From: Chloracidobacterium thermophilum B
GTDB lineage: Bacteria; Acidobacteriota; Blastocatellia; Chloracidobacteriales; Chloracidobacteriaceae
Length of the DNA: 64,000 bases
NCBI RefSeq assembly: GCF_000226295.1
Contig: NC_016024.1
Location: 1 to 64,000 of the forward strand
Direction of reading: 5' to 3'
This document shows, piece by piece, positions 6,004-64,000 of the stretch. Within the stretch, counting starts at the first letter, position 1. Each line of letters opens with the position of its first letter. The position numbers were made by a program, and so were the translations under genes. The notes under the pieces were generated by a model. The model saw only the letters and a program-made list of their open reading frames with translations, made no database searches and was not told the DNA's origin.

Positions 6004-7068
6004 ATGGCATCCAATGATCTCCGGAGCAGTTCCTCCGGATCGCATCTCGCTCATGCTCCATCAAACCGTGGCCGGGTAGCGATCTTCATTGATGGCAATA
6101 ACCTGTTTCACGCCGCGCGGTCGGCTGGCGTCGAAATAGACTACGCCAAGCTCCTTGCCTACCTCCGGGGGGAGGACCCGCTGCTGCGGGCCTTCTTTTA
6201 TACCGGAGTGGACCAGCAGGCGGAGCGCCAGCAGGGGTTTCTGCTCTGGATGCGCCGCAACGGCTACCGTGTCGTACAGAAAGAACTCAAAACCTTCCCG
6301 GATGGCACCAAGAAAGCCAACCTCGATGTCGAAATTGCCGTGGATATGCTGTCACTGGCCGACAAGTACGACACGGCTATCCTCGTCAGCGGGGATGAAG
6401 ACTTTACTTATGCCCTCAATGTGATTGCCTACAAGGGGGTACGGGTTGAGGTGGCTGGCTTCCGTGCCAACACTTCGCCGCGCCTGATTGACGTTGCCGA
6501 CCGCTTTCACGAACTGGATGCCATCGTGACCGACATCAGCAAGTCTCCAAGCAAGCGGGACTCGCAACAGACAGAAGCTCTGCGTCCAAGTGGAGAGTGG
6601 TCAATTTCACCGGATCGCCCGGCTGAGAAACCCGAATTGAGTGGAGCCACGGCCTCTCCGGCAGAAACCGGCAGCGTTGAAGTACCTGATGAACAACCCA
6701 GTCAGCCACCGGTTTCAGGGGGCACGGGAGAACTTGTTGGAAAACCCACCCAGCCGACGGAAACGGCATCATCGGGAACAGCACCCCTGGAAACAGTGCC
6801 GGCGGTTGTCGAACCACCGCCTGTCACCGTGGACAATATCGTTGTGGGGGCGCTCCAGTCTGGCGAACATCCCGTCGTGATGGCTGATGAATGGGAGGCA
6901 TCAGAACTACCAGCCGAAGCGATGCCCGGTTCTACCTTGGAGCTGTCGGCCCTTGTGCCTTCGCCGGAACTGCCCGAAACCGGTAGGCCGGAACCTGGCA
7001 CCGAAGGCGATACGGTTGGCAGCGACACACCAGGAGCTGAGCAAAGCCCGAAGGTCGGGCAACGCTGA
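6004..7068 (+). CDS. NYN-domain (LabA/DUF88-like) protein with long Pro/Glu-rich tail
   Basis: NYN domains are PIN-like folds that often act as RNases. Residues about 20-175 carry the expected acidic residues: IFIDGNNLFHAA, NLDVEIAVDML and LVSGDEDF. This places the gene in the LabA/YihE-type DUF88 family. From about 180 to 354 the protein becomes low-complexity, rich in Pro, Glu, Ser and Thr, with no recognisable fold, so it is probably disordered. A good promoter (5905-5933) precedes it, suggesting separate transcription from sbtAB. The substrate is unknown. Confidence 0.82.
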   Translation: MASNDLRSSSSGSHLAHAPSNRGRVAIFIDGNNLFHAARSAGVEIDYAKLLAYLRGEDPLLRAFFYTGVDQQAERQQGFLLWMRRNGYRVVQKELKTFPDGTKKANLDVEIAVDMLSLADKYDTAILVSGDEDFTYALNVIAYKGVRVEVAGFRANTSPRLIDVADRFHELDAIVTDISKSPSKRDSQQTEALRPSGEWSISPDRPAEKPELSGATASPAETGSVEVPDEQPSQPPVSGGTGELVGKPTQPTETASSGTAPLETVPAVVEPPPVTVDNIVVGALQSGEHPVVMADEWEASELPAEAMPGSTLELSALVPSPELPETGRPEPGTEGDTVGSDTPGAEQSPKVGQR

Positions 7069-7120
7069 GCACCTGACCTCCGGGGCGACAAAATCAACAC
7101 GCTGGCGTCGAAGTTACGGA

Positions 7121-8749
7121 CTACAGCAGGTTTCCCGTCAGCACAAATGGCCCAAGGTGTGGACCGGGCTGATTGAGACAGGTTTCAAGCGCCAGCCGGA
7201 GCATTGGACGGAGGTCTTCCGGCGGCAGCACGGCATCGCAGAAACCACGCGCTGCCGCAAACCGGGCATCGAGCTGCGCTTCGTAGGTGGCCCGAACGGC
7301 ATCCATTTCCGCCTGCAAGTCGGCGTCCGGCGATTTTCCTTCCGCCTTGAGCCGTTCCAGTTGGGCTGAAAACAGCGCCATGACGGCCGATTCACCTTCC
7401 ATGACGCCCATGCGTCCGGTGGGCAGCGAGAAGATGAAGTTCGGGTCGAAACCCTGTCCGGCCATGGCGTAGTAGCCAGCGCCCGACGCATGGTTGACCG
7501 TCAGCACCAGCTTGGGCACGGTGGCCGTCGCCATGGCTTCAACGAAGTGAGCGCCGGCGCGGATGATGCCGGACTGCTCGGCTTCGACGCCGACCATAAA
7601 GCCCGACACATCCTGCACGAAAAGCAGGGGCAGGCGGTGCCGGTTGCAGGTTTCGATGAAGTAGGCCACCTTCTCGGCGCTTTCCCGATAGACAATGCCG
7701 CCGAAGCGCGGTGGCCGGTCGCCGGTGGACTTGATGAGGCCCCGCCGGTTGGCAATCAACCCAACCGGGATGCCTTCGACCCGCGCGTGGGCGCAAATCA
7801 TTTCACGGGCGTAATCGGCCTGAAACTCATCGAAGGAATCAGCATCCAGCAGGGTGTCAAGCAGGGCTTCAACATCGTAGGGAAGCCGGTGATCGGCCGG
7901 CAGGATTTGATATGCCTCCCGTGGGTCGCGCCGGGGAGGCCGCGCTGGTGTAACCGAAACGGCACGGGGCGGCGGTGGCGGCAGCTCCGCCACCAACCGC
8001 CGGAGCCGCGCCAGACAGGCCGCATCATCCGGCTCGCGGTAATGCGCCACGCCGGAAACTGTCGTGTGCATCCGCGCACCGCCTAACGCTTCCGGGTCCG
8101 AGGTCTGCCCCGTCGCTCCGCGCACGAGGTTGACCCCGCCAAGGCCCATGAAACTCGTGCCTTCAACCATGACGATGACATCCGACAGCGCTGGCAGATA
8201 GGCGCCGCCGGCAATGCACTGCCCCATCACGGCAGCCAGTTGTGGTATGCGCAGATGCCGGCGCATCAGCGAGTTGTAGTAAAACAGCCGGGCCGCGCCA
8301 TACTGTCCGGGAAAGACGCCTCCCTGATAGGGCAGGTTGACGCCGGCCGAATCCACCAGGTAGGCAATCGGCACACGGCAGCGCATGGCCACTTCCTGGG
8401 CCCGTAGCATCTTCGTAATGGTTTCGGGAAACCAGGCGCCGGCCTTTACCGTGGGGTCATTGGCTACAACCACAATCTCGCGTCCGTGGCAGCGTCCGAT
8501 ACCCGTCACCACGCCGGCTGCCGGCGCTTGTCCGTCATACCGGTCGTAGGCCACGAGCAGGCCTATTTCGAGGAAGGGGGAACCGGGATCGAGCAACCCG
8601 GCAATGCGTTCGCGGGCCGTCAGCTTCCCTTGGGCGTGGAGGCGCTCGATTTTGGCTTCACCGCCGCCCAGTCGGAGCCGGGCTTCAAGTTCCCGCAGTT
8701 CGGCCGTCAGGCGTTCCAGATTCTGCGACATCGTGGTTTTCAGCGACAT
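7121..8749 (-). CDS. Acyl-CoA carboxylase, carboxyltransferase (beta) subunit
   Basis: This biotin-dependent carboxyltransferase subunit (542 residues) moves CO2 from carboxybiotin to an acyl-CoA such as propionyl-, methylcrotonyl- or geranyl-CoA. It has two crotonase-fold halves: an N half with VVVANDPTVKAGAWFPET and a C half with oxyanion-forming GAGYYAMAG. The NDPTVK and LVDSAGVNLP signatures lean to the methylcrotonyl/geranyl-CoA group, but the acyl substrate is not settled. No biotin carboxylase or biotin carrier gene is adjacent, so its partners must be elsewhere. A second ATG at 8731 (MSQNLERL) is an equally good start. The start overlaps the upstream gene by 10 bases. Confidence 0.88.
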   Translation of the reverse strand: MSLKTTMSQNLERLTAELRELEARLRLGGGEAKIERLHAQGKLTARERIAGLLDPGSPFLEIGLLVAYDRYDGQAPAAGVVTGIGRCHGREIVVVANDPTVKAGAWFPETITKMLRAQEVAMRCRVPIAYLVDSAGVNLPYQGGVFPGQYGAARLFYYNSLMRRHLRIPQLAAVMGQCIAGGAYLPALSDVIVMVEGTSFMGLGGVNLVRGATGQTSDPEALGGARMHTTVSGVAHYREPDDAACLARLRRLVAELPPPPPRAVSVTPARPPRRDPREAYQILPADHRLPYDVEALLDTLLDADSFDEFQADYAREMICAHARVEGIPVGLIANRRGLIKSTGDRPPRFGGIVYRESAEKVAYFIETCNRHRLPLLFVQDVSGFMVGVEAEQSGIIRAGAHFVEAMATATVPKLVLTVNHASGAGYYAMAGQGFDPNFIFSLPTGRMGVMEGESAVMALFSAQLERLKAEGKSPDADLQAEMDAVRATYEAQLDARFAAARGFCDAVLPPEDLRPMLRLALETCLNQPGPHLGPFVLTGNLL

Positions 8750-9192
8750 TCGCCCGCAATTTCGTGGTAGCGGTCGTGGAGTTTGTTGAGCGCCGCTTTG
8801 ATTTCCTCATCGCTGGCCTGCCGGGCCACAAGTTGGGCGACCTCAGCCGCCTCCCGTTCGAGCTTTGCCAGCAGTGGACGGAGTGCTGCTGCATCATAGC
8901 CCTTGGGCGGCCGGGAACGCGCCCACAGCCGGGCCTTGCGGGCCATTTCAGCCGCCCGTTTGCGTACCGGGCCAAAGTCGCCATCTTCCATCGGGTGAAA
9001 CGTTCCGGCCAGGACGGAGTGAAACTCCTCCTGGGCTTTCCACGGGGCTTTGGGCTTGGGAGCGACGCCGGTCGTGGGTTCCTGCACGACGGCAGGCTCG
9101 ACGACGGTATGCCCGACAGACGCTTGTCCGCCGATACCAAACGCCAGAACCAATCCAGTGAAACCGGTTGCAAAGGACTTGGTACGAATCAT
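8740..9192 (-). CDS. Secreted alpha-helical protein of unknown function
   Basis: The 150-residue product begins with a signal peptide (KSFATGFTGLVLAFGIGGQAS). After a Pro-rich linker, residues about 52-150 look all-helical, with a His-containing first helix (EEFHSVLAGTFHPMEDGD) and a last helix KLHDRYHEIAGEC. The pattern resembles the four-helix bundles of cytochrome c-prime-like periplasmic proteins, but there is no CxxCH heme motif. I do not recognise a named family. It overlaps the carboxyltransferase start by 10 bases and is probably co-transcribed with it and with folE upstream. Confidence 0.65.
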   Translation of the reverse strand: MIRTKSFATGFTGLVLAFGIGGQASVGHTVVEPAVVQEPTTGVAPKPKAPWKAQEEFHSVLAGTFHPMEDGDFGPVRKRAAEMARKARLWARSRPPKGYDAAALRPLLAKLEREAAEVAQLVARQASDEEIKAALNKLHDRYHEIAGECR

Positions 9193-9210
9193 TCCTGATG
9201 AGACTCCATA

Positions 9211-9834
9211 TCACCCGCCCCGGCTGGTTGCCTGGCGGGAAAGATAGTTGAAAAACTGCTCGCGCCACGGGGCTTCCTGAAAGCATCCCCGCAGGACGGT
9301 GCTTTCCACAGACCCGTCCGCGCGAACGCCGCGCATTTCCATGCACATCTGACGCGCAATCAGGCAGACGGCCACGCCTTGGGGATGACACACCCGCTCG
9401 ATAGCAGTAGCGACATCCATGGCCAGGCGTTCCTGAAGCTGCGGCCGGCGTGCCGCGTGCTCAAGCAGTTTGGCCGGCGCGCCAATGCCCATCGCCAGCG
9501 CGGCGGGGACGTAAGCCACGTAAGCTGCGCCGAAAAACGGCGTCAGATGGTGGGCGCACATCGAATGGAACGACATCCCGCCAACGGCAATGAACTGACC
9601 GGACAGCTCTGCGGCCGGAAAGGTTGAAACCACCGGCGGTGGCTGGTCTGCAATGAAGGGTGCAAAAAACTCCGCCCAGAACTCCGCAACGTTTTCCGCC
9701 GTGCGCTCCAGATGAGTATCACGGTCTGCGGTCAGCCGCAGCGCCTCCAGCATGCGTTGCAGGGCGCGCGCTGCCGTCAGCAGTTCCATCCCCTCATTGC
9801 TCTCTGGCTTGGTTTGCTCGTCGTGCTTCGGCAT
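9211..9834 (-). CDS. folE: GTP cyclohydrolase I
   Basis: FolE converts GTP to dihydroneopterin triphosphate, the first step of folate and pterin synthesis. The 207-residue protein has the family motifs [33 protein letters not shown] and the second zinc cysteine in CMEMRGV. The usual CEHH zinc motif reads CAHH here, replacing the Glu with Ala while keeping the zinc-binding Cys and His. Divergently oriented asnS starts 77 bases away, so the short gap must hold both promoters. Confidence 0.92.
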
Positions 9835-9911
9835 GCTATTCCCACAATCGTGACAAGGCTCACGCTATCACAAGTTTGTCCCGTGATGCTCCCAACGATA
9901 TTGAAACAACC

Positions 9912-11228
9912 ATGACGAATCACGTGCGGATTGCTGATTTTGCCGCCAACCTTGGGCAGACCGTCACCATCAGGGGTTGGCTTTACAACGCCCGTTCGAG
10001 CGGAAAACTGCTGTTTCTCGAAATCCGGGACGGTTCCGGGATCGTGCAGGGAATAGTTTCCAAAAACGCTGTTTCCGAAGAAGTCTGGAACCGGGCGGCG
10101 GCGCTGACCCAGGAATCTTCCATCATCGTCACCGGGATGCCCCGCGAACACCCCAAACGACCCGGTGTGTACGAACTTGACGTACACGACCTCACCATCG
10201 TTCAACTGACGCAGGACTACCCCATCACGCCCAAGGAACACGGCATCGAGTTTCTGATGGACCACCGCCACCTGTGGCTGCGCTCCAAACGGCAGCACGC
10301 CATCCTGCGCGTCCGGCACGAAGTTGTCCGCGCGGTCCGCGACTTTCTCGACAACGATGGCTTCATTCTGGCCGACACCCCCATCCTGACGCCGGCGGCC
10401 TGTGAAGGCACCACGACCCTGTTCGAGCTGGATTACTTCGACGACGGCAAAGCCTACCTGACGCAGTCGGGGCAGCTTTACAACGAAGCCACTGCTGCCG
10501 CCTTCGGCAAGGTCTATTGCTTCGGCCCGACGTTTCGGGCCGAAAAGTCCAAGACCCGCCGCCATCTGACAGAGTTCTGGATGGTCGAACCGGAAGTTGC
10601 CTACGCAACGCTGGAAGACATGATGGTGCTGGCTGAGCGTTTCCTGAGCTTCATCGTGGCGCGCGTCCTGGAGCGCCGCCGGGAAGAACTCAAGCTGCTC
10701 GAACGCGATACAAGCAAGCTGGAAGCCATTGCCGCGCCGTTTCCACGCCTGCCCTACGATGAAGCTGTGCGGATGCTTCACGAGGCGCATCTGGCCGGCA
10801 AGCTCGAACACGATTTTGTCTGGGGAGGCGACTTCGGTGCGCCGGATGAGACCTACCTGGCACAGCAGTTTGACCGGCCGGTGATCGTCCACCGCTATCC
10901 GGCGCAGGTCAAAGCATTCTACATGGAAGAAGACCCGGAACGCCCGGAACTGGCCCTGTGCATGGACGTGCTCGCCCCGGAGGGCTATGGGGAAATCATC
11001 GGCGGCGGCCAGCGCATGCAATCCTACGACCGGCTTGCACAGCGGATCGCCGAGCACAACCTGCCCCGCGAAGCTTTTGAATGGTATCTTGACCTGCGCC
11101 GGTACGGCACGGTGCCCCACGCTGGCTTTGGCATGGGCATTGAGCGGTGTGTTGCCTGGTTATGCGGTCTGGAGCACGTCCGCGAAACGATACCTTTCCC
11201 GCGCATGCTGTACCGGCTGCGGCCCTGA
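9912..11228 (+). CDS. asnS: Asparagine--tRNA ligase
   Basis: This class IIb aminoacyl-tRNA synthetase charges tRNA-Asn. The 438-residue product has an N-terminal OB-fold anticodon domain ([25 protein letters not shown]) and a class II core with motif 2 [25 protein letters not shown] and motif 3 [13 protein letters not shown]. The lack of an AspRS GAD insert and the [15 protein letters not shown] motif point to AsnS. The ATG at 9912 fits the fold; longer in-frame sequence upstream overlaps folE and is not needed. Confidence 0.93.
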
Positions 11229-11265
11229 AACCCGAAAAAATACAGAAAGGTGCAGCGAGACCACA

Positions 11266-12129
11266 ATGCGGCTGAAAACTACGTCACTCTGGTTGGCGCT
11301 CTTGCTGGCAGGTTGGTTGACGGGCAGTGCGGCTGCCCAGTCGCCAACCAGCCCAAAGCCGGCTTCTGGGCTGACGCCAACGGATACCGTCCAGATGTTT
11401 TACCGCCTGCTGCGGGAGCAGCGGTTGACTGAGGCTTTCCAACTGCACGTCTGCGGCCCGGCCGTTGAAAAAATGACGCCCCAGCAGTTGGACGAACTGA
11501 AGCCGGAATTTCTCAAGCTGATCGGAAAGATTCCTGAAAAGCTCACGACGAGCGGCGAAACCATCACCGGAGATGACGCCACGGTGTTTGTCGTCGTGCC
11601 GGCTGAGGCTGCACCCGGCAACCCGTCGCCACAAACTGAAACGGCCTCGGTTGGACTCATTCGCAGCAACGGACGCTGGCTCATCGGCGACCGTGAAACC
11701 CAGGCCCTGGCCTTGGCCCACGGCGAAAGCTTCTTCAAGTTGAGCGAAGAAGGTGTCTTCATCCGAATGTTTCAGAACGAAGACGCCATGGCGCGGCTGG
11801 TGACGCAGTTGGTGGAAATCGAGCAGGTGTTTGCCCGCAACAACCGGGGGCAGTACGGCACGCTCCCGGAACTTGTTGCGTACCGGAACCAGTTCCGGGA
11901 AGACATCGCCCGCCTGCTGGCATCGCTCGAAAACGGCGAAATCTTCGGGCACACGATTGAAATCGAGCTGACGCCCGACCGCCGGGACTTTGCTGTCTAT
12001 GCCGTTCCCAAGCGGCACAACTACGATGGCCGCTACTCATTTTATGCCGACCGCAGCGGCGTTCGTTACCGCAACTACGGCGGCGCACGCATCGAGAAGG
12101 ACACGCCCGGCAACAAGACCCTCAACTGA
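11266..12129 (+). CDS. Secreted protein with DUF4878-like and pilin-like domains
   Basis: A signal peptide (LWLALLLAGWLTGSAAAQ) begins this 287-residue protein. Residues about 30-150 resemble the NTF2-like/DUF4878 lumen domain (TDTVQMFYRLLREQRLTEAFQL, later RSNGRWLIGD). Residues about 180-280 resemble the globular part of acidobacterial pseudopilins: a helix with ARNNRGQYGTLPELV and a strand region ending RYSFYADRSGVRYRNY. The N-terminal pilin helix and prepilin cleavage site are missing, so it is probably a free periplasmic protein. It lies 37 bases after asnS and 38 bases before the next gene. Function is unknown. Confidence 0.7.
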   Translation: MRLKTTSLWLALLLAGWLTGSAAAQSPTSPKPASGLTPTDTVQMFYRLLREQRLTEAFQLHVCGPAVEKMTPQQLDELKPEFLKLIGKIPEKLTTSGETITGDDATVFVVVPAEAAPGNPSPQTETASVGLIRSNGRWLIGDRETQALALAHGESFFKLSEEGVFIRMFQNEDAMARLVTQLVEIEQVFARNNRGQYGTLPELVAYRNQFREDIARLLASLENGEIFGHTIEIELTPDRRDFAVYAVPKRHNYDGRYSFYADRSGVRYRNYGGARIEKDTPGNKTLN

Positions 12130-56202: not shown

Positions 56203-56249
56203 GATACGGACCCCGCTTGGCTATGGCCGGACTGTGGGAGGTAACGCCC

Positions 56250-58844
56250 TTGGCCGCGAACTGGGAAAAGATTCTGCTTACCTACCTGCACGACCCACCT
56301 GACAAGGCACTCGCCATTCGCGGACACGTTGACCGCGCCCGCCGGTATGCCGCCATTGTGGTTGGCGAAGAGGGAAGCTGCCACATCGAAGAAGCTGCTG
56401 CAACCGCCGATCCACTGGCCTCGGCGGTTGAACGCTTTCCCATGCCAACGGCCGGAAGAGATGGCGAGCGGGCCGTTGCCCCGAAAAACGGCCAACTGCG
56501 TATCTTCCATCCGCTATCGGCCGCTCCAAAAGACCTCAATGTGCCGCCGCTGAATGACGCCTTGACGCAGGCCGAGGAACAGCAGCTTCGGGCTATCGTC
56601 GGCGGTTTGCCCGCAAACGAACACTTCATGCGCCTGCTGGCCATCTGGCGGTTGTGGCCGGATGCGCTGGCGACGGTTCGCCCGTGCTTTGCGTTGCTCC
56701 CGGCAGACACGCGGACGCCAGACCATACCATCTGGCATCACGCCGACACGGCTGCGGCGTTTCGAGCGGCCCTTGACGCCGGCGGCGGAGAAGCCCTGCT
56801 CGCCTTTGCGCTGGGGCCTGTCCAGCGGTTTATCGAGGCGGCGCGAACCGTACGCGATCTGTGGTCAGGCAGCATGATCCTGTCGTGGCTGGCGTTTCAG
56901 GCGATGAAGCCCATCCTTAAAGACCTTGGCCCGACAGCGCTCATCTACCCTTCCCTGCGCGGTGTTCCGCTGGTGGATTTGTGGCTGCGCAACGCGCAAG
57001 GACTACAAGAGCAAGTGCCCCTGCCGCCAACCGAACTGCGGATGACACCCTCGCTGCCACACCGGTTTCTGGCCCTTGTGCCGTGGGGCAAGGACGGTAC
57101 GGCTGCCCAAGAACTGGCCAAAAGCTGCCGCCAGGCTGCCGATGCCGCCGTCAAGGCCCTGGCTGAGGCCGTCCGGGCAAAGCTCAAGCAACCTTTGGAC
57201 AACGCCTGCCAAGGGTGGGACAAGCGGTGGGACGCACAAATCGAAAACTACTTCAACGTTGCGACCGCTGTGCTGCCGCTGGGCGGCTCTGCCCAAACCA
57301 TTGACCAGAAGCTGGCGCGCCTGCTCACCGGCAAAGCTTCCTTCGAGGAAGCCTTTCCCAACGCGGCCGCCGTCCGTCAGCTTGCCCGCGCCATTCCCAA
57401 AGGTGATCAACCGGGCTACGACCAGGAACACGCCGGGCGCTGGCAGCATCAGGTCGAGCTGGCGCAGCGGTCGCTGGCTGCCCATCGCACCGTTCGCCAT
57501 GTCCCATCCAATCTACCGGTTCAGACTGGCGGGCGCTTTCCGCAGAAATGTACGCTGCTCGGAACCTTCGAGCAGATGGGGCCGGACGAACTCAGCGCAT
57601 CAAAGCAGTTCTGGAATACGCTTTCGGCGTCAGAGCAGGGCCTGAGTATCGAGGGCGTTCGCCTGCGGCCGGGTGAAGGCTTGTGCGCCATCGGGCTGGT
57701 CAAGCGATTTGCCGCGCCGGCCTTTCTGAAAAAGGAACTGGAGCTTTCAACGGACGACCTGCGTTTCCCGGATACCTGGACTGTCGCGGCTGCTGACTGG
57801 TTGCGGCAGGCCGGAATTGACTGGCGGCGGGACTGGAGAAAGCCCTGGAACGGCAACTGGCTGTACTGGTCCCGACCGGACGAGAATCCCGAAGACGCCG
57901 ATTCCTGCCCGGCGGAACTTTGGAAAATCATCGCGTCGGCCAAAAAAGAACAGGGCCGGCCGCCGGTGTACTACGCCATTCTCAAGCTTGACGGCGATGA
58001 GCTTGGCGGCTGGCTGCGGGGTGAAAAGTCGCCGCCGGTGCGGGAGGTGATGCACCCTGAACTTGTCGCCTACTACGAAAATCTGCACCAGCAAGCCGGG
58101 CTGGACGCCAAACGCCCGGTCGGCCCGGCGCTGCATGCCGCCATCAGCACGGCGCTGGCCAACTTTGCCCTGCACATCGTCCCACAGGTCGTTGCCGAAC
58201 ACGGCGGAACGGTCATTTATTCCGGCGGCGATGACACCCTGGCGCTGCTGCCGCTCAGCACCGCCCTGGACTGCGCCCATGAACTGCAAGCTGCCTACAC
58301 AGCCGACTGGTACGAAAAAGACGGCCGCACCTACCTGCTCATGGGTTCGCTGGCTACGCTGTCGGGCGGGCTGGTGCTTGTTCACGCCAAGGACGATCTC
58401 CGGCTGGCATTGCAGGATGCCCGCCGCGCCGAAGAGCAGGCCAAGGATGCCGGCCGCGATGCCCTGGCCATAACCGTCCGCCGCCGGTCGGGCGAGCACA
58501 CAACAGCCATCTGTCCGTGGGGCTTTGTCCCGGTGGTGACGAAGTGGAAACAGGCGTTTCTTGCCGGGGCTTCGGATCGGTGGGCCTATCACCTGTACGC
58601 CGGGCGGCATACGCTGGCCGCCCTTCCCAGGGAAGCCATCCAGGCGGAGATACGGCGGCAGTTGGGGCGGGCGGAAAAGCCAATTCTCCCGCCTGATGCG
58701 CTCGTTGCGGATTTTGAGGCCTTCACGAATGCAAAGGTCGCTTCAGGGAGCCGCCCGCGTTTTGCTTCGGTCGGAGAGGCGCTCGGGCATTTTCTCACGC
58801 TCTGCCATACGGCGTCGTTTATGGCGCGTGGGGGAAGGGAATGA
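56250..58844 (+). CDS. cmr2: Type III-B CRISPR Cas10/Cmr2 (HD + palm/GGDD)
   Basis: Cas10 is the large subunit of the Cmr effector; on target RNA it makes cyclic oligoadenylates and, with an HD domain, can cut DNA. The TTG at 56250 is favoured by GGGAGG at 56236-56241 and gives 864 residues starting MAANWEKILLTYLHDPPDKA; ATG 56223 and TTG 56217 are alternatives. The HD pair (residues 14-15) and the palm motifs LKLDGDELG and IYSGGDDTL (659-662) are intact, so cyclase activity is expected. The zinc finger has only Cys434 (CTLLG) and Cys479 (CAIG), with the second cysteine of each pair replaced. It starts the Cmr operon. Confidence 0.93.
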   Translation: MAANWEKILLTYLHDPPDKALAIRGHVDRARRYAAIVVGEEGSCHIEEAAATADPLASAVERFPMPTAGRDGERAVAPKNGQLRIFHPLSAAPKDLNVPPLNDALTQAEEQQLRAIVGGLPANEHFMRLLAIWRLWPDALATVRPCFALLPADTRTPDHTIWHHADTAAAFRAALDAGGGEALLAFALGPVQRFIEAARTVRDLWSGSMILSWLAFQAMKPILKDLGPTALIYPSLRGVPLVDLWLRNAQGLQEQVPLPPTELRMTPSLPHRFLALVPWGKDGTAAQELAKSCRQAADAAVKALAEAVRAKLKQPLDNACQGWDKRWDAQIENYFNVATAVLPLGGSAQTIDQKLARLLTGKASFEEAFPNAAAVRQLARAIPKGDQPGYDQEHAGRWQHQVELAQRSLAAHRTVRHVPSNLPVQTGGRFPQKCTLLGTFEQMGPDELSASKQFWNTLSASEQGLSIEGVRLRPGEGLCAIGLVKRFAAPAFLKKELELSTDDLRFPDTWTVAAADWLRQAGIDWRRDWRKPWNGNWLYWSRPDENPEDADSCPAELWKIIASAKKEQGRPPVYYAILKLDGDELGGWLRGEKSPPVREVMHPELVAYYENLHQQAGLDAKRPVGPALHAAISTALANFALHIVPQVVAEHGGTVIYSGGDDTLALLPLSTALDCAHELQAAYTADWYEKDGRTYLLMGSLATLSGGLVLVHAKDDLRLALQDARRAEEQAKDAGRDALAITVRRRSGEHTTAICPWGFVPVVTKWKQAFLAGASDRWAYHLYAGRHTLAALPREAIQAEIRRQLGRAEKPILPPDALVADFEAFTNAKVASGSRPRFASVGEALGHFLTLCHTASFMARGGRE

Positions 58845-59971
58845 ACGGGGCGATGAAGACCGTCGGCTTGTGCCTGGAAGCACTTGATGTGCTGTTCTTC
58901 CGCGACGGACGGCCCTTTATGGACGGCACCGAGCAGATGCTCAGCGGTTTGCCGCTCCCGCAAACCCTGGCCGGAGCCATCTGCACGGCGCTCATGCAGG
59001 CTGCCGGCTGCGACTTCGGCCGGTTACGGCACGCGCTGGAAGAAGGAAAGCCGTTTGCCGAAGCCGTACGCGAAGCTTGCAGCGCGGAGGCGCACTGGAT
59101 CGGTGCGTTGGCCGTACGTGGCCCCTGGCTGGCCCGGTGGGACAAAAACCCCGCTACGCCATGCGAAGTGCTCGTGCCGGCGCCGGCGACGCTGCACCGG
59201 GCCAAAGGGAAAACCGGCGGCCAACAGCTTTTTGCCCTGGCCCCCCTGCAGGAAGAACTCCCCGGCTGGCACCCTGTGCCGGAAGAGCAACGGCGTCCGC
59301 TGTGGCTCAAAGAAGCGGTCGTCACCGAGCCGGTCGAAGGCTATCTGACGCCCGCCGGGCTGTCCCACTTTCTCGAAGGCAAACCGGTTTCTGCGACGGA
59401 AGTTGTCCCGGCAGGCGATTTGTTCGGACTGGATTACCGCATCGGCATCGGCATTTCGCCCGAACGCCTGGTGAGTGAGGAGTCACAGATTTACGGACGT
59501 GGTTTTCTGGCGCTGAAGCAGGGCGTGTTTCTCTATGCCGAAGTGTGCCTGCCGGACGACGCGCCAGCGGGCGCGCTGGACAAGTTGACAACCCTGGCTT
59601 TTGGCGGTGAAAGCCGCCACGTGCTGTGCCACCGGCTGAAAGAACCCTTTGCCTGGCCGCGTGAAGTCCCTTCCACAGAAGGGCAGAAGCCGCTGGTACT
59701 GCTGACGACCCCGTGTGTGTTTGCGCACGGCTGGAAGCCAGAGGCGTTCACCGGCCGCCTGGCGGCCGCTGCCGTGTCCGGTTCAGTCGCGTTTTCCGGC
59801 TGGGACCTGGCGCGCGGCGGGCCCAAACCTACGCGCTTTGCCGTCCCGGCCGGAAGTGTCTATTTCCTGGATGACCTGCCGGACGATGCCCCGTTCCTGC
59901 TGGCGGAAACGGAGGACGACCGTCGGCAGGGCTGGGGATGCTATGTGAGAGGAGTGTGGAACCATGTCTGA
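58841..59971 (+). CDS. cmr3: Type III-B CRISPR RAMP protein Cmr3
   Basis: Cmr3 (Cas5 group) binds the 5-prime crRNA tag and pairs with Cmr2 at the base of the complex. The 376-residue product has the Cmr3 N-terminal signature LEALDVLFFRDGRPF, followed by GLPLPQTLAGAICTALMQ and a late RRQGWG segment. Its ATG overlaps the cmr2 stop (ATGA) after GGGGAAGGG, so translation is coupled. Confidence 0.92.
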   Translation: MNGAMKTVGLCLEALDVLFFRDGRPFMDGTEQMLSGLPLPQTLAGAICTALMQAAGCDFGRLRHALEEGKPFAEAVREACSAEAHWIGALAVRGPWLARWDKNPATPCEVLVPAPATLHRAKGKTGGQQLFALAPLQEELPGWHPVPEEQRRPLWLKEAVVTEPVEGYLTPAGLSHFLEGKPVSATEVVPAGDLFGLDYRIGIGISPERLVSEESQIYGRGFLALKQGVFLYAEVCLPDDAPAGALDKLTTLAFGGESRHVLCHRLKEPFAWPREVPSTEGQKPLVLLTTPCVFAHGWKPEAFTGRLAAAAVSGSVAFSGWDLARGGPKPTRFAVPAGSVYFLDDLPDDAPFLLAETEDDRRQGWGCYVRGVWNHV

Positions 59972-60890
59972 ACCCGTAGCCGCCAACGCGAACGCCGCTT
60001 TGCAGCGTGCCGCCGCCCTGCTGTTTATCCATGCCCAGACAGGTCTGCATCCCGGCTCGGGCACGGCTTTGGGAACTGTGGATTTGCCGGTACAACGTGA
60101 GCGCCATACGCAGTGGCCGGTCATTCCCGGCTCAACGCTCAAGGGCATTGTGCGCGATGCATGCCGCCGGGCTGCCGGCAACAACGGTGATCTGTTCGCT
60201 GTCTTCGGCCCGGAAACCGCCGAGGCCGGCAAGCACGCCGGGGCGCTGAGCATGACCGATGCGCGCATCCTGGCTTTTCCGGTACGTTCCCTGCGGGGCG
60301 TCTTTGCCTGGGTGACGTGCCCGGCCGTACTCGAACGGCTTCAGCGCGATCTGAAACTGGCTGACCTGGGCAACGCCGGCTTCAGGCTGCCGGCTGAACC
60401 GGGGAAAGACAAAGCCCTGTGCCATGCCGACAGCCCCCTGCTGGTTGGCGGCAAACAGTTGGTGCTGGAAGAGTTCGAGTTTGAACGCACGGGCGATGCC
60501 AATGATCTGACGGACTGGCTTGCCGTGCGGGCCGTAGCTGACGAGGCAACGCAAAAGCGGCTGCAAAGCCATCTGGTCGTGCTGCACGACGACGACTTCA
60601 CGCATTTTGTCCGCCATGCCACCGAGGTCGTGGCCCGCGTCGGCCTCGATTACGAACGCAAGACGGTCAAGGAAGGCGCGCTGTTTTACGAGGAGTTCCT
60701 GCCGGCAGAGACGCTGTTTTATGCCGTGGTGCTGGCCAGCGCCAGTCGCCGCAACGGCCACAGCCAGTCAGCCGGCGACGTTCTGGCGTACGTACAGTGC
60801 CATACCCCGCCCTACCTGCAAATCGGGGGCGATGAAACCATTGGCAAGGGACTCTGCGCCGTGCGGCTGGTCAACGGAAAGGAGGCGTGA
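59964..60890 (+). CDS. cmr4: Type III-B CRISPR RAMP protein Cmr4 (backbone, RNA cleavage)
   Basis: Cmr4 (Cas7 group) repeats along the crRNA and cuts target RNA every six bases. The 308-residue protein has LHPGSGTALGTVDLPVQRERHTQWPVIPGSTLKG. Within this, His29 and Asp40 align with the His15 and catalytic Asp26 of the Pyrococcus furiosus Cmr4 sequence as I recall it, so target-RNA cleavage should be intact. The C-terminal glycine-rich loop QIGGDETIGKGL is typical. It overlaps cmr3 by eight bases and is preceded by GAGAGGAG. Confidence 0.94.
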   Translation: MSEPVAANANAALQRAAALLFIHAQTGLHPGSGTALGTVDLPVQRERHTQWPVIPGSTLKGIVRDACRRAAGNNGDLFAVFGPETAEAGKHAGALSMTDARILAFPVRSLRGVFAWVTCPAVLERLQRDLKLADLGNAGFRLPAEPGKDKALCHADSPLLVGGKQLVLEEFEFERTGDANDLTDWLAVRAVADEATQKRLQSHLVVLHDDDFTHFVRHATEVVARVGLDYERKTVKEGALFYEEFLPAETLFYAVVLASASRRNGHSQSAGDVLAYVQCHTPPYLQIGGDETIGKGLCAVRLVNGKEA

Positions 60891-60895
60891 GGCTT

Positions 60896-61297
60896 ATGGC
60901 AAGTCAACCAACACTTGACCAGCGCCGCGCCAGCCACGCCTGGGAAGCTGTGCAGCGCGCAAAGCAGAAGCAGGGCCCGCACCAAAAGCAGGAACCCAAA
61001 AAGTTCGGCGGACAGGCCAAAAAACTGCCCGTCCGTATCATGACGGCCGGGTTGGGGCAGGCGCTGGCGTTTCTGAAAGCCAAAGGTTATGCGCCGGGAC
61101 TGCTCGCCGAACTCACCGACTGGATCAACCAGCGGATGCCACCCCAGGGAAACGAGCCAAAAGACCTGCTGGAGCGCATTGTCAAAGGCAATGCCGATGT
61201 TCTGCGGCGGGCAACCGATGAAGTGCTCGCCTATCTCCTGTGGCTCAACCGCTTTGCCGAAGCCGAAGGACTGACAGAAGAAACAGAAGCGTCATGA
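60896..61297 (+). CDS. cmr5: Type III-B CRISPR small subunit Cmr5
   Basis: Cmr5 (Cas11 group) lines the inner face of the complex. The 133-residue helical protein has the family start TLDQRRASHAWEAV and ends in helices DEVLAYLLWLNRFAEAE. A Lys/Gln-rich insert (about 23-45) extends the first loop beyond compact Cmr5 proteins. The ATG at 60896 is ten bases after AAGGAGG; GTG at 60887 is too close to that site. Five bases separate it from cmr4. Confidence 0.88.
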   Translation: MASQPTLDQRRASHAWEAVQRAKQKQGPHQKQEPKKFGGQAKKLPVRIMTAGLGQALAFLKAKGYAPGLLAELTDWINQRMPPQGNEPKDLLERIVKGNADVLRRATDEVLAYLLWLNRFAEAEGLTEETEAS

Positions 61298-63681
61298 CCC
61301 AGCAGCTTGTTTTGCCCAAAAGCACATTCGAGCTATTCAAGCTTATCACGAGCACCCAGGTTCAGCATCCGGGCCTGCAACTCGACAAGTACAGCGTTCC
61401 GGGCAATCAGGAGGCACAAAAAAGCGCTCTGGAGGGGGTATGCCGTGTTCCCGGTGATTCGTCACTGCTCACAGAGCTGCTGGCGCGTCGGCAGGCTATG
61501 TTGAAGGCTCTGCCGGGCGGAAGCTGGTTTGACTGTACGACAACGGGCCCTTTGACGCTGCATCTGGCGCGGGCGACGGCGCTGGAAAACGCTGGTATCT
61601 GCCTGCATCCGATCTACGGCTTTGCCTACCTGCCCGGCAGCGGCCTCAAAGGGCTGGCGCGCGCCTACGCTGAAACCGTCTGGTTGCCGGCGCAGTCTGA
61701 CCAGCCGGCTGCCTGGCGGCAGATTGAGGATGTCTTTGGCTGGGCCCCCAACCCGGACCGTCGCCAACAGATTGCGAACAGCCATCATCCGGCCGCCGTC
61801 CGGCATCAGGACGACACCGACCCGGACTCCCCGGAGGTCAAGGCCGCATGTGGCAACGTTGTTTTTCACGACGCCTGGCCGGAATGCTGGCCCAGGCTGG
61901 TGGTGGACATCGTCAACAACCACCATTCCGGGTACTACCAGGAAACTCATCAACATCCGCCGGGCGACTGGGAAGACCCGGTACCCGTGTACTTTCTGGC
62001 CGTTGCGCCAGACGTGACCTTCACGTTTCCGTTGAGCAAGCGCCACCACGACGTTTCTGATGACCTTCTGGAACTGGCCCGGGCGTGGCTGCTGGGCGGG
62101 CTGTGTCATCTGGGCGCTGGCGCCAAGACCAACACCGGCTACGGGGCATTCAAGCCGGCGGAAGGTACGTTGCCGCCGCTGCCGGAGCACAGGCTGGAAA
62201 TCTTTGAGACCGAGCTGAAACTGACCTCGCCAGCCTTTCTGGCCGGAGCCAATCAGCAGCGTGAAGACTGCGACCTGCGTCCGGCGACGCTGCGCGGCCT
62301 GCTCCGCTGGTGGTGGCGCACCCTGCACGCCGGCGCGGTGGATGTCGCCACCCTGCGCACTCTGGAAGCTGCCATCTGGGGGGATACCAAAGGCGGTGCA
62401 GCGGTGCGGCTGGTTGTGGAGCGGGTTGCCAGCCCCAATCCACAGCCCTACAACAAGAGAGACTTGGCAAACTTCGACGACCGGAAGAAGAAATCCGAGT
62501 ACGGTATTCCCGAAGCCAACCCGGAAAAGACCACGCAGGGCCTGTGGTATCTCTCCTATGGAATGGACGAGTCCAGCCGCGAAGGGGAGAGAAAGCAGCG
62601 CCACTGGCTTGAACCGGGTGCAACCTGGCGGTTGCGGCTGGTAGCCCGTCCAACCCACTTTGTTGAGCCGGTGAAAACAGGGCAGAAAGCAAACCGCCAG
62701 GCAGACAAAGCCCAGCCGGTCAAGCACACAGCCAGGCCCATAACGGCCGACGAGGCACTGGAGCAGGCCAAAGCGGCCCTGTGGCTGCTGTGCCACTTTG
62801 GTGGCGTCGGCTCAAAGGCACGCAAGGGATTTGGCTCGCTTCAGGCAACCCAACTGGCCGATGGATACAGGCTGGAAACCTGCCGGCAAGCCGCAGAACG
62901 GTTGCGTGGACAGTTAGGGCTGGCAGCAAAACCTAACGCCATTGGACTGAGTCAAATGCTTGGCCCGGTTGAGGTTGATTTTTCCTGGCCGGATGTCTGG
63001 AGCGTACTCGACCAGGTGGGGTTTGCCTATCAGGCGTTTGCCAAAAAGTACAAGCATAAGCTGGAGAAGAAAGCCCTGGGGTTGCCCCGCCGGATTGGCC
63101 CACCCGTGCAGGGGAGCTTCACCCCCCGCCCGCCCGTCAAAGATCGGCATGCTTCGCCGGTGCACATTCACCTTGCCCCCCGTAAAGATGGCGAGCAGGG
63201 CTGGACGGTGCGCATCGTGGCTTTTCCGTCAGCATATCTTCCAGACTTGGGGACCAGCCGGAATTTCCTGCAAGCGTTTCTCCAGAAAGTTAAGAGCGAC
63301 TTGGAACAGCGTGCCAGCCTTTCCGCACCTGGCGGGCAGAAGCCGGCAGTGTCCAATCCGGCTGTGGGGAGCGCATCGGCGTCAACCACCTCATTTCCTT
63401 CCCCCGGAACCACGGTCAAAGCTGTGCTTCTGGAAGAGAAGACCAAAAAAGGCGGCTGGAAGGCGCGCCACCTAGACAGCCGCCGAGAAGGTCCGATTGT
63501 GAATACTAAAGAAGTGCCAGGCGACAAGCAGCCCGGTGAAGAGGTGGAACTCATCGTCGCCAGCGCTGGCGACTCACTGAGTTTTCGTTGGCCGACTGAG
63601 GAAGAAAAACAACGCGCCCAGAAAGCCCAGGACAAGACGAAAAAGGGCCCTGGCCATCAACCCAAAGGAGGTCGTCGGTGA
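61294..63681 (+). CDS. Fused Cmr6-Cmr1 RAMP protein with extra C-terminal domain
   Basis: This single 795-residue frame combines two normally separate subunits. Residues 1-295 are Cmr6-like: YGFAYLPGSGLKGLARAYAE, CGNVVFHDAWPECWPRLVVDIVNNHHSGYY and GAKTNTGYGAF. Residues about 302-525 are Cmr1-like: ELKLTSPAFLAGANQQREDCDLRPATLRGLLRWWWRTLH and GVGSKARKGFGSL. Residues 526-675 continue with a RAMP-like C-terminal part (RHASPVHIHLAP). A Ser/Pro linker leads to a small beta-rich domain (about 705-770: AVLLEEKTKKGGWKAR...VELIVAS...FRWP) and a basic tail. ATGA overlap with cmr5 couples translation. Cmr6 and Cmr1 sit together at the head of Cmr complexes, so the fusion is structurally sensible. Confidence 0.9.
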   Translation: MTQQLVLPKSTFELFKLITSTQVQHPGLQLDKYSVPGNQEAQKSALEGVCRVPGDSSLLTELLARRQAMLKALPGGSWFDCTTTGPLTLHLARATALENAGICLHPIYGFAYLPGSGLKGLARAYAETVWLPAQSDQPAAWRQIEDVFGWAPNPDRRQQIANSHHPAAVRHQDDTDPDSPEVKAACGNVVFHDAWPECWPRLVVDIVNNHHSGYYQETHQHPPGDWEDPVPVYFLAVAPDVTFTFPLSKRHHDVSDDLLELARAWLLGGLCHLGAGAKTNTGYGAFKPAEGTLPPLPEHRLEIFETELKLTSPAFLAGANQQREDCDLRPATLRGLLRWWWRTLHAGAVDVATLRTLEAAIWGDTKGGAAVRLVVERVASPNPQPYNKRDLANFDDRKKKSEYGIPEANPEKTTQGLWYLSYGMDESSREGERKQRHWLEPGATWRLRLVARPTHFVEPVKTGQKANRQADKAQPVKHTARPITADEALEQAKAALWLLCHFGGVGSKARKGFGSLQATQLADGYRLETCRQAAERLRGQLGLAAKPNAIGLSQMLGPVEVDFSWPDVWSVLDQVGFAYQAFAKKYKHKLEKKALGLPRRIGPPVQGSFTPRPPVKDRHASPVHIHLAPRKDGEQGWTVRIVAFPSAYLPDLGTSRNFLQAFLQKVKSDLEQRASLSAPGGQKPAVSNPAVGSASASTTSFPSPGTTVKAVLLEEKTKKGGWKARHLDSRREGPIVNTKEVPGDKQPGEEVELIVASAGDSLSFRWPTEEEKQRAQKAQDKTKKGPGHQPKGGRR

Positions 63682-64000
63682 ACAAGCCAAGCATTCTGAT
63701 CTGTACCGTTGGCACGAGTCTGTTTCAGCCCAACCTGGAAGCTTTGAAGAAAGGCCTGTCCAACGACGGTATCAAGCCGGAATACCGCCCCCTGGCCGAA
63801 GCCTACCAACGTGGCGACTGGCCGGGAGTTGCCAAAGCCCTGCGCCCTTTGCCGGCCAGTGACCGGGTGTGCGGCGCAGAGATCAACTCCATTGCCAGCC
63901 TGCTTGAGAAGGAATACATCCCGGCAGACTGTGGACTGTTTTTTCTTCACTCCAGCACGGACAAGGGACGCGACATCGCGGCCATTCTCAAGGATTACTA
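63678..64000 (+). CDS. CARF-domain CRISPR accessory protein, N-terminal part (cut by window end)
   Basis: A frame starts at GTG (63678) six bases after AAAGGAGG and overlaps the previous stop by four bases; it runs open to the window end (107 residues seen). The start KPSILICTVGTSLFQPNL is the TVGTSL nucleotide-binding motif of CARF proteins, and LFFLHSSTDKGRDIAA is the second conserved strand and loop. The pattern is like the APE2256/TIGR02619 CARF group. It could be a cyclic-oligoadenylate-activated effector such as Csx1/Csm6-like or a ring nuclease; the C-terminal domain that would decide is outside the window. Confidence 0.8.
   Translation, partial: MNKPSILICTVGTSLFQPNLEALKKGLSNDGIKPEYRPLAEAYQRGDWPGVAKALRPLPASDRVCGAEINSIASLLEKEYIPADCGLFFLHSSTDKGRDIAAILKDY

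Follow-up and report, generated by a model that had tools for sequence, protein, structure and literature searches.

Why should a type III-B CRISPR locus encode, as one protein, two subunits that canonical complexes of this type make separately? The question is raised by a gene near the end of the 64,000-nt stretch of Chloracidobacterium thermophilum B DNA analysed here, hereafter the window. Cmr1 and Cmr6 sit at the 3′ end of the crRNA, where pairing with the target RNA begins (the seed), and both are required for target binding (PMC5965380, PMC8376896). In the canonical III-B systems of Pyrococcus furiosus, Archaeoglobus fulgidus and Thermus thermophilus the two are separate proteins, whereas the window locus carries them in one chain, even though it shares with those systems the six Cmr subunits, the HD and GGDD motifs of Cas10, the Asp of Cmr4 and a CARF effector. 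As judged from sequence comparisons and structure models, the fusion probably provides a single-chain cap for the 3′ end of the Cmr complex, with Cmr6 and Cmr1 at 1:1 and perhaps an additional S1-like grip on RNA, in a lineage that appears to have spread between phyla.

Operon context and architecture of the fused gene

The gene belongs to an operon with the order cas10, cmr3, cmr4, cmr5, cmr6-1 and a CARF gene, all on the forward (+) strand and with neighbours overlapping by a few bases. The first gene, cas10/cmr2 (56217-58844; 875 aa if read from the earliest possible start; PF22335, PF12469 and TIGR02577, 1.1e-69), encodes an N-terminal HD motif (LHDPPDK) and a Palm GGDD at residue 670. It is followed by cmr3, of the Cas5 group (58841-59971; 376 aa; PF09700, 5.2e-57; TIGR01888, 3e-36), by cmr4, encoding the Cas7 backbone (59964-60890; 308 aa; TIGR02580, 5.1e-76), for which motif alignment shows the conserved VDLPVQRE to be intact, its presumed catalytic Asp included, and by cmr5, encoding Cas11 (60887-61297; 136 aa; PF09701, 2.3e-27; TIGR01881, 1.1e-14). 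Downstream of the fusion begins a gene for a CARF7 (DUF2103-type) effector of 382 aa (63678-64000; PADLOC CARF7--CARF_DUF2103, 2.8e-136), which runs past the window to contig position 64826. Cmr2, Cmr3, Cmr4 and Cmr5 all score above the NCBIfam cut-offs. Several features of type III-B are present: a Cas10 with its Palm motif, Cmr3, Cmr4 and Cmr5 in the operon, and Cmr1 plus Cmr6, here in one chain. Since these last two share a single frame instead of occupying the usual separate genes, which are no strict requirement, the locus is a variant within III-B. The catalytic motifs of Cas10 and Cmr4 are conserved, as target RNA cleavage and cyclic oligoadenylate signalling would require, and the complex is probably active.

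The fusion gene itself (61294-63681, +; 795 aa) starts with an ATG in a 4-nt overlap with the stop of cmr5 and contains no internal stop, which confirms the proposal of the first-pass annotation that one open frame encodes both RAMP proteins. Another 28 aligned proteins have the frame unbroken, which rules out a sequencing error or frameshift merging two genes. Residues 1-288 (61294-62157) constitute the Cmr6 half, matched by the NCBIfam model TIGR01898 over residues 99-287 (8.7e-32). A junction of residues 289-303 (62158-62202), weakly conserved and variable in length among relatives, leads into the Cmr1 half (residues 304-680; 62203-63333), which is matched by TIGR01894 from residue 312 (NCBIfam; 1.4e-12, in two stretches) and by the PADLOC Cmr1 model PDLC01445 over residues 305-644. 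This half contains both RRM-like parts of Cmr1 and the motifs LRPATLRGLLRWWWR, FGGVGSKARKGFGS and RHASP.

Independent comparisons lead to the same assignment. The Pfam RAMPs family matches the protein twice (2.5e-29). A profile of 29 fused proteins searched against the PDB recovered a Cmr6 chain with its first half (3x1l_H, 1e-46) and Cmr1 with its second (4w8x, 9.9e-23; 4l6u, 4.3e-22). The best whole-model PDB matches obtained with Foldseek for the AlphaFold2 model (pLDDT 80.2, pTM 0.75) include Cmr6 (9l7c_I) and Cmr1 (4w8x and 9l7c_A), and the multi-Cas7 chains of types III-E and III-D (8s9x, 7wah and 7zol among the matches listed) rank after them. When unfused Cmr6 and Cmr1 proteins of the same class were concatenated end to end and aligned with the fusion, all residues invariant in the compared rows were found to be kept in both halves. 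Profiles, PDB matches and model therefore agree on a complete Cmr6-like half followed by a complete Cmr1-like half, as originally read from the DNA, and the presence of a single RAMP protein only is ruled out by the NCBIfam, PDB-profile and Foldseek matches to both. The window locus yielded no second cmr1.

Neither a CRISPR array nor an Rfam match was found within the window. Two arrays with cas1 genes nearby lie on contig 2 of the same genome (G000), at about 985-988 kb and 421-428 kb; the repeat of one ends ATTGAAGC, and the other has GTGCAAAAATCTTTGATGCCGAAAGGCGTTGATCAC, or the complementary sequence, as its repeat. The array whose repeat ends ATTGAAGC is a possible source of crRNA. The sequence GGGGATTGAAAC is absent from the genome, and the repeat end typical of related fused loci was not found in it. 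A second type III-B locus, unfused, occurs on contig 1 of this genome (204525-212288; L005), and its Cmr6 bears a C-terminal extension of OB-like appearance.

Distribution of the fusion

A scan of the genome collection yielded about 28 further loci matching both halves, a few of them cut by contig ends. They occur in Planctomycetota, Acidobacteriota, Pseudomonadota, Rhodothermota, Elusimicrobiota and Thermodesulfobacteriota, and also in Bacillota, Latescibacterota, Binatota, Actinomycetota, Bacteroidota and Sericytochromatia, the 29 aligned fused proteins representing at least 11 named phyla. Instead of the isolated oddity implied by the first reading, the fusion is widespread. Complete fused loci usually keep the order cas10-cmr3-cmr4-cmr5-cmr6-1, and no separate cmr1 was found in fused loci.

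In a sample of the Planctomycetes class, 13 of 99 genomes gave a match (6 fused, 7 not), and 46 of 292 did so in the phylum to which Sericytochromatia and cyanobacteria belong, with one long frame in 44 of the 46. Separate Cmr1 and Cmr6 genes, taken as the norm by the first-pass annotation, are thus not the rule in every group. The 25 loci inspected in the latter phylum have both halves, except for L131, which is unfused, and L148, in which only the Cmr6 half was detected; a stop breaks the frame in L142. Viral contigs contained no relatives of the fusion, and plasmids searched with the window protein offered no place matching both halves.

Two relatives show that the locus can be lost. On contig 1 of the close relative G004 (95% identity in the upstream DNA), near 59.4 kb (L039, 7440), a deletion of about 3.2 kb begins inside cmr3 and ends inside the Cmr1 part, corresponding to window positions 59725-62892; the two sides overlap by about 2 bases where they join. 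The orthologous operon on contig 59 of G003 (L038) is frameshifted in cas10, cmr3, cmr4 and the fusion, by either decay or poor assembly. At another locus (L060, 4777-5961), a 394-aa frame ends in a C-terminal Cmr5 preceded by 260 aa of N-terminal sequence.

The S1-like tail and the role of the fused head

The additional beta-rich domain and basic end noticed at first pass are indeed present. Behind a low-complexity tether (residues 681-700; 63334-63393; pLDDT about 40), AlphaFold2 predicts a confident five-stranded barrel (residues 701-770; 63394-63603; pLDDT above 91), after which come a helix and a basic C-terminal end (residues 771-795; 63604-63678; 9 K/R against 2 D/E). For a stand-alone model of the tail, Foldseek ranks S1 domains and further RNA-binding OB folds best, among them those of eIF2alpha, exosome subunits, RNase R and II, NusA, DHX8 and eIF1A; the E-values are weak (best 6.7e-3) but the theme is consistent, and the tail is a predicted S1-type OB fold. 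By sequence, the tail had no significant match in the PDB or Pfam, and among curated S1 and CSD families none was convincing, the best Pfam match being S1CSD-TOTE-1 (0.011, in 2 of 18 tails). Matches to CD4 were discarded as chance.

A signature, LLEEKTKKGGW...GPI.N...PGD..PG, is kept across phyla. The HMM detects the tail in 18 of the 29 aligned fused proteins; as it is undetected in the other 11 and in the cyanobacterial fusions, the tail is not essential. The same tail lies directly behind Cmr6 in two unfused proteins, one from a Chloracidobacterium relative (G005; 49% identity over the tail), in which cmr1 is a separate gene, and one from a Planctomycetes-class genome (G356; 53% identity over the tail). 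The extra domain is therefore not peculiar to the fusion, but a Cmr6 accessory that in the fused protein has been placed after the Cmr1 half. S1 domains joined to RAMP-type proteins of another type III variant were noted in 2011 (PMC3150331).

Between the window and its congener G006, pN amounts to 0.26 in the Cmr6 half, 0.27 in the Cmr1 half and 0.36 in the tail, with pS of 0.65, 0.73 and 0.82, respectively, synonymous sites being near saturation; in the junction and the tether pN reaches 0.58 and 0.60. Both halves and the tail thus appear to be under purifying selection, with little acting on the junction, a pattern as expected if folded units were carried on flexible links.

A chain running from Cmr6 to Cmr1 through a link of about 15 residues is consistent with the neighbourhood at the 3′ end of the crRNA, where, as the first-pass annotation noted, the two subunits adjoin in published structures (PMC5965380, PMC8376896). 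In the mechanism proposed here, the Cmr6 half would cap the filament of Cmr4 subunits, with the Cmr1 half tethered to it and folding over the crRNA 3′ end, so that every finished complex would contain one Cmr6 and one Cmr1. The S1-like tail would then lie near the crRNA 3′ end and the incoming target, and could add a grip on RNA at the seed end, either on the target or on the crRNA 3′ end. A fixed 1:1 stoichiometry and an RNA grip by the tail are both plausible. The fusion would have arisen in a III-B lineage that subsequently moved between phyla.

A possible, though distinctly less probable, explanation is that the fusion is functionally neutral, linking two subunits that bind anyway, with the tail as a dispensable leftover of a tailed Cmr6 and a complex that behaves as an ordinary III-B. 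The freely varying length and sequence of the junction, the tails on the unfused Cmr6 of G005 and G356, the many fused proteins that have no tail and the unfused III-B locus in the same genome would all agree with such neutrality. It accounts less well for the persistence of the fusion throughout a wide lineage and in at least 11 phyla, the fused clade showing no clear reversal, and for the strong conservation of the tail motif LLEEKTKKGGW across phyla. The preferred reading remains a single-chain cap with a putative RNA-binding tail.

Origins and relation to other fused systems

The history of the fusion was followed on quick trees of Cmr4 and Cas10. On Cmr4, the window-type fusions fall into one group, bar a few long or divergent rows, and their constraint to a single clade was not rejected (AU p 0.72). 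On Cas10, in a tree in which two long rows (group fusedS, the L161 and L162 genes) are to be disregarded, most window-type fusions also group together, the exceptions being L049, L069 and L106, which fall among unfused systems. In these three the Cas10 part, and perhaps Cmr3, looks to have been swapped, with the fusion and Cmr4 staying in the fused lineage. A Phycisphaerales fusion (L072, 4727-7327) is placed outside the main fused group by the first Cmr4 tree as well as by the Cas10 tree, and may be independent of it. Horizontal transfer is suggested by identity to the window protein, which reaches 66% in a Planctomycetes-class genome (G363) and 59% in the congener G006.

On either tree the cyanobacterial fusions fall into a clade of their own, and a joint clade with the window-type fusions was not rejected on Cmr4 (AU p 0.185), so that two origins are likely, although unproven. 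Descent of both groups from one fusion event, which would make the fused form one deep branch of III-B, seems doubtful: the domain order is identical in the two groups and the Cmr4 constraint would allow it, but the unconstrained Cmr4 and Cas10 trees separate them (on Cas10 at a starred branch), and their junctions and motifs differ strongly.

In Sericytochromatia, four loci (L066, L068, L161 at 7674-12095 and L162 at 6840-11419) consist of three genes, encoding Cmr4, an extended Cmr5 and a Cmr6-1 protein with the S1-like tail, with no adjoining cas10 or cmr3. The VDLPVQRE motif, and with it the catalytic Asp, is missing from their Cmr4. Genomes G067, G079 and G098 yielded no convincing Cas10, with weak Palm matches only, and no Cas1 was found in G098 or G092. 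The 884- and 907-aa genes of L161 and L162 were considered as divergent Cas10 and rejected, as they match Lamin Tail and choice-of-anchor domains; the next gene of L161 encodes MetK. The module is possibly a CRISPR-derived complex with another role. A broader scenario, which we regard as improbable, would make the Cmr6-Cmr1-S1 protein the mark of a horizontally spread III-B sublineage whose seed end acts as a single arm for capturing RNA, with target RNA recruited by the S1-like domain and crRNA length fixed by the fused head, and which also seeded the Cas10-less and Cmr3-less Sericytochromatia module; this module would have ceased to signal or cut and would serve another role.

Very improbable is that, in the way Cas11 is produced from inside some large-subunit genes, free Cmr1 is also made from the frame by an internal start or proteolysis, so that complexes hold separate subunits; an in-frame ATG, GTG or TTG does occur near the junction in some relatives, and in the window a TTG stands at codon 293, a few bases downstream of GGAAGG, but neither the start codon nor its position is conserved and several relatives have none near the junction.

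One explicit report of a Cmr6-Cmr1 fusion was found in the open literature, the 'Cmr1-6' of cluster 4 in Microcystis aeruginosa FACHB-524 (PMC11855584). A homologous fused protein, WP_242018641.1, annotated only as a RAMP superfamily protein, belongs to the III-Bv system on plasmid pSYSA of Synechocystis 6803. This III-Bv system is reportedly the subject of a paper by Behler and colleagues (2018). As in the window, both cases unite Cmr6 and Cmr1 domains in one chain, and on pSYSA the order is Cmr6-Cmr1, behind cas10, cmr3, cmr4 and a small gene. In contrast to the window protein, the cyanobacterial fusions measure about 540-680 aa, lack the S1-like tail and have another junction and other motifs (the Microcystis protein being known here from the report alone); their Cas10 proteins form a separate clade, and the window fusion fails to group with cyanobacterial III-B on that tree. 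No description of the multi-phylum, S1-tailed lineage was found in the open-access literature, and priority is uncertain; PDB entry 9z7q is a Cmr1-MntA fusion for which no open paper was found. As the fusion occurs in many phyla and has been noted in a cyanobacterium, it represents a real variant and no unique oddity.

The Cas7 fusions of type III-D and the Cas7-11 (gRAMP) of type III-E likewise place Cas7-group subunits in one chain, and the parallel drawn with them at first pass holds for a different pair, only Cmr6 and Cmr1 being joined here. The III-E effector is a single chain of four Cas7 domains plus Cas11, with no Cas10, whereas in the window Cas10, Cmr3, Cmr4 and Cmr5 are encoded by separate genes. 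The subunits of class 1 effectors have repeatedly been merged into a smaller number of chains, with Cas7-11 as the end point. Another case of such merging, at a different pair of subunits, is this widespread natural fusion, which is confined to the cap at the crRNA 3′ end. It would provide a natural route to how the seed and the length of the crRNA are set by Cmr1 and Cmr6, and the fused head may offer simpler complexes for RNA-sensing uses.
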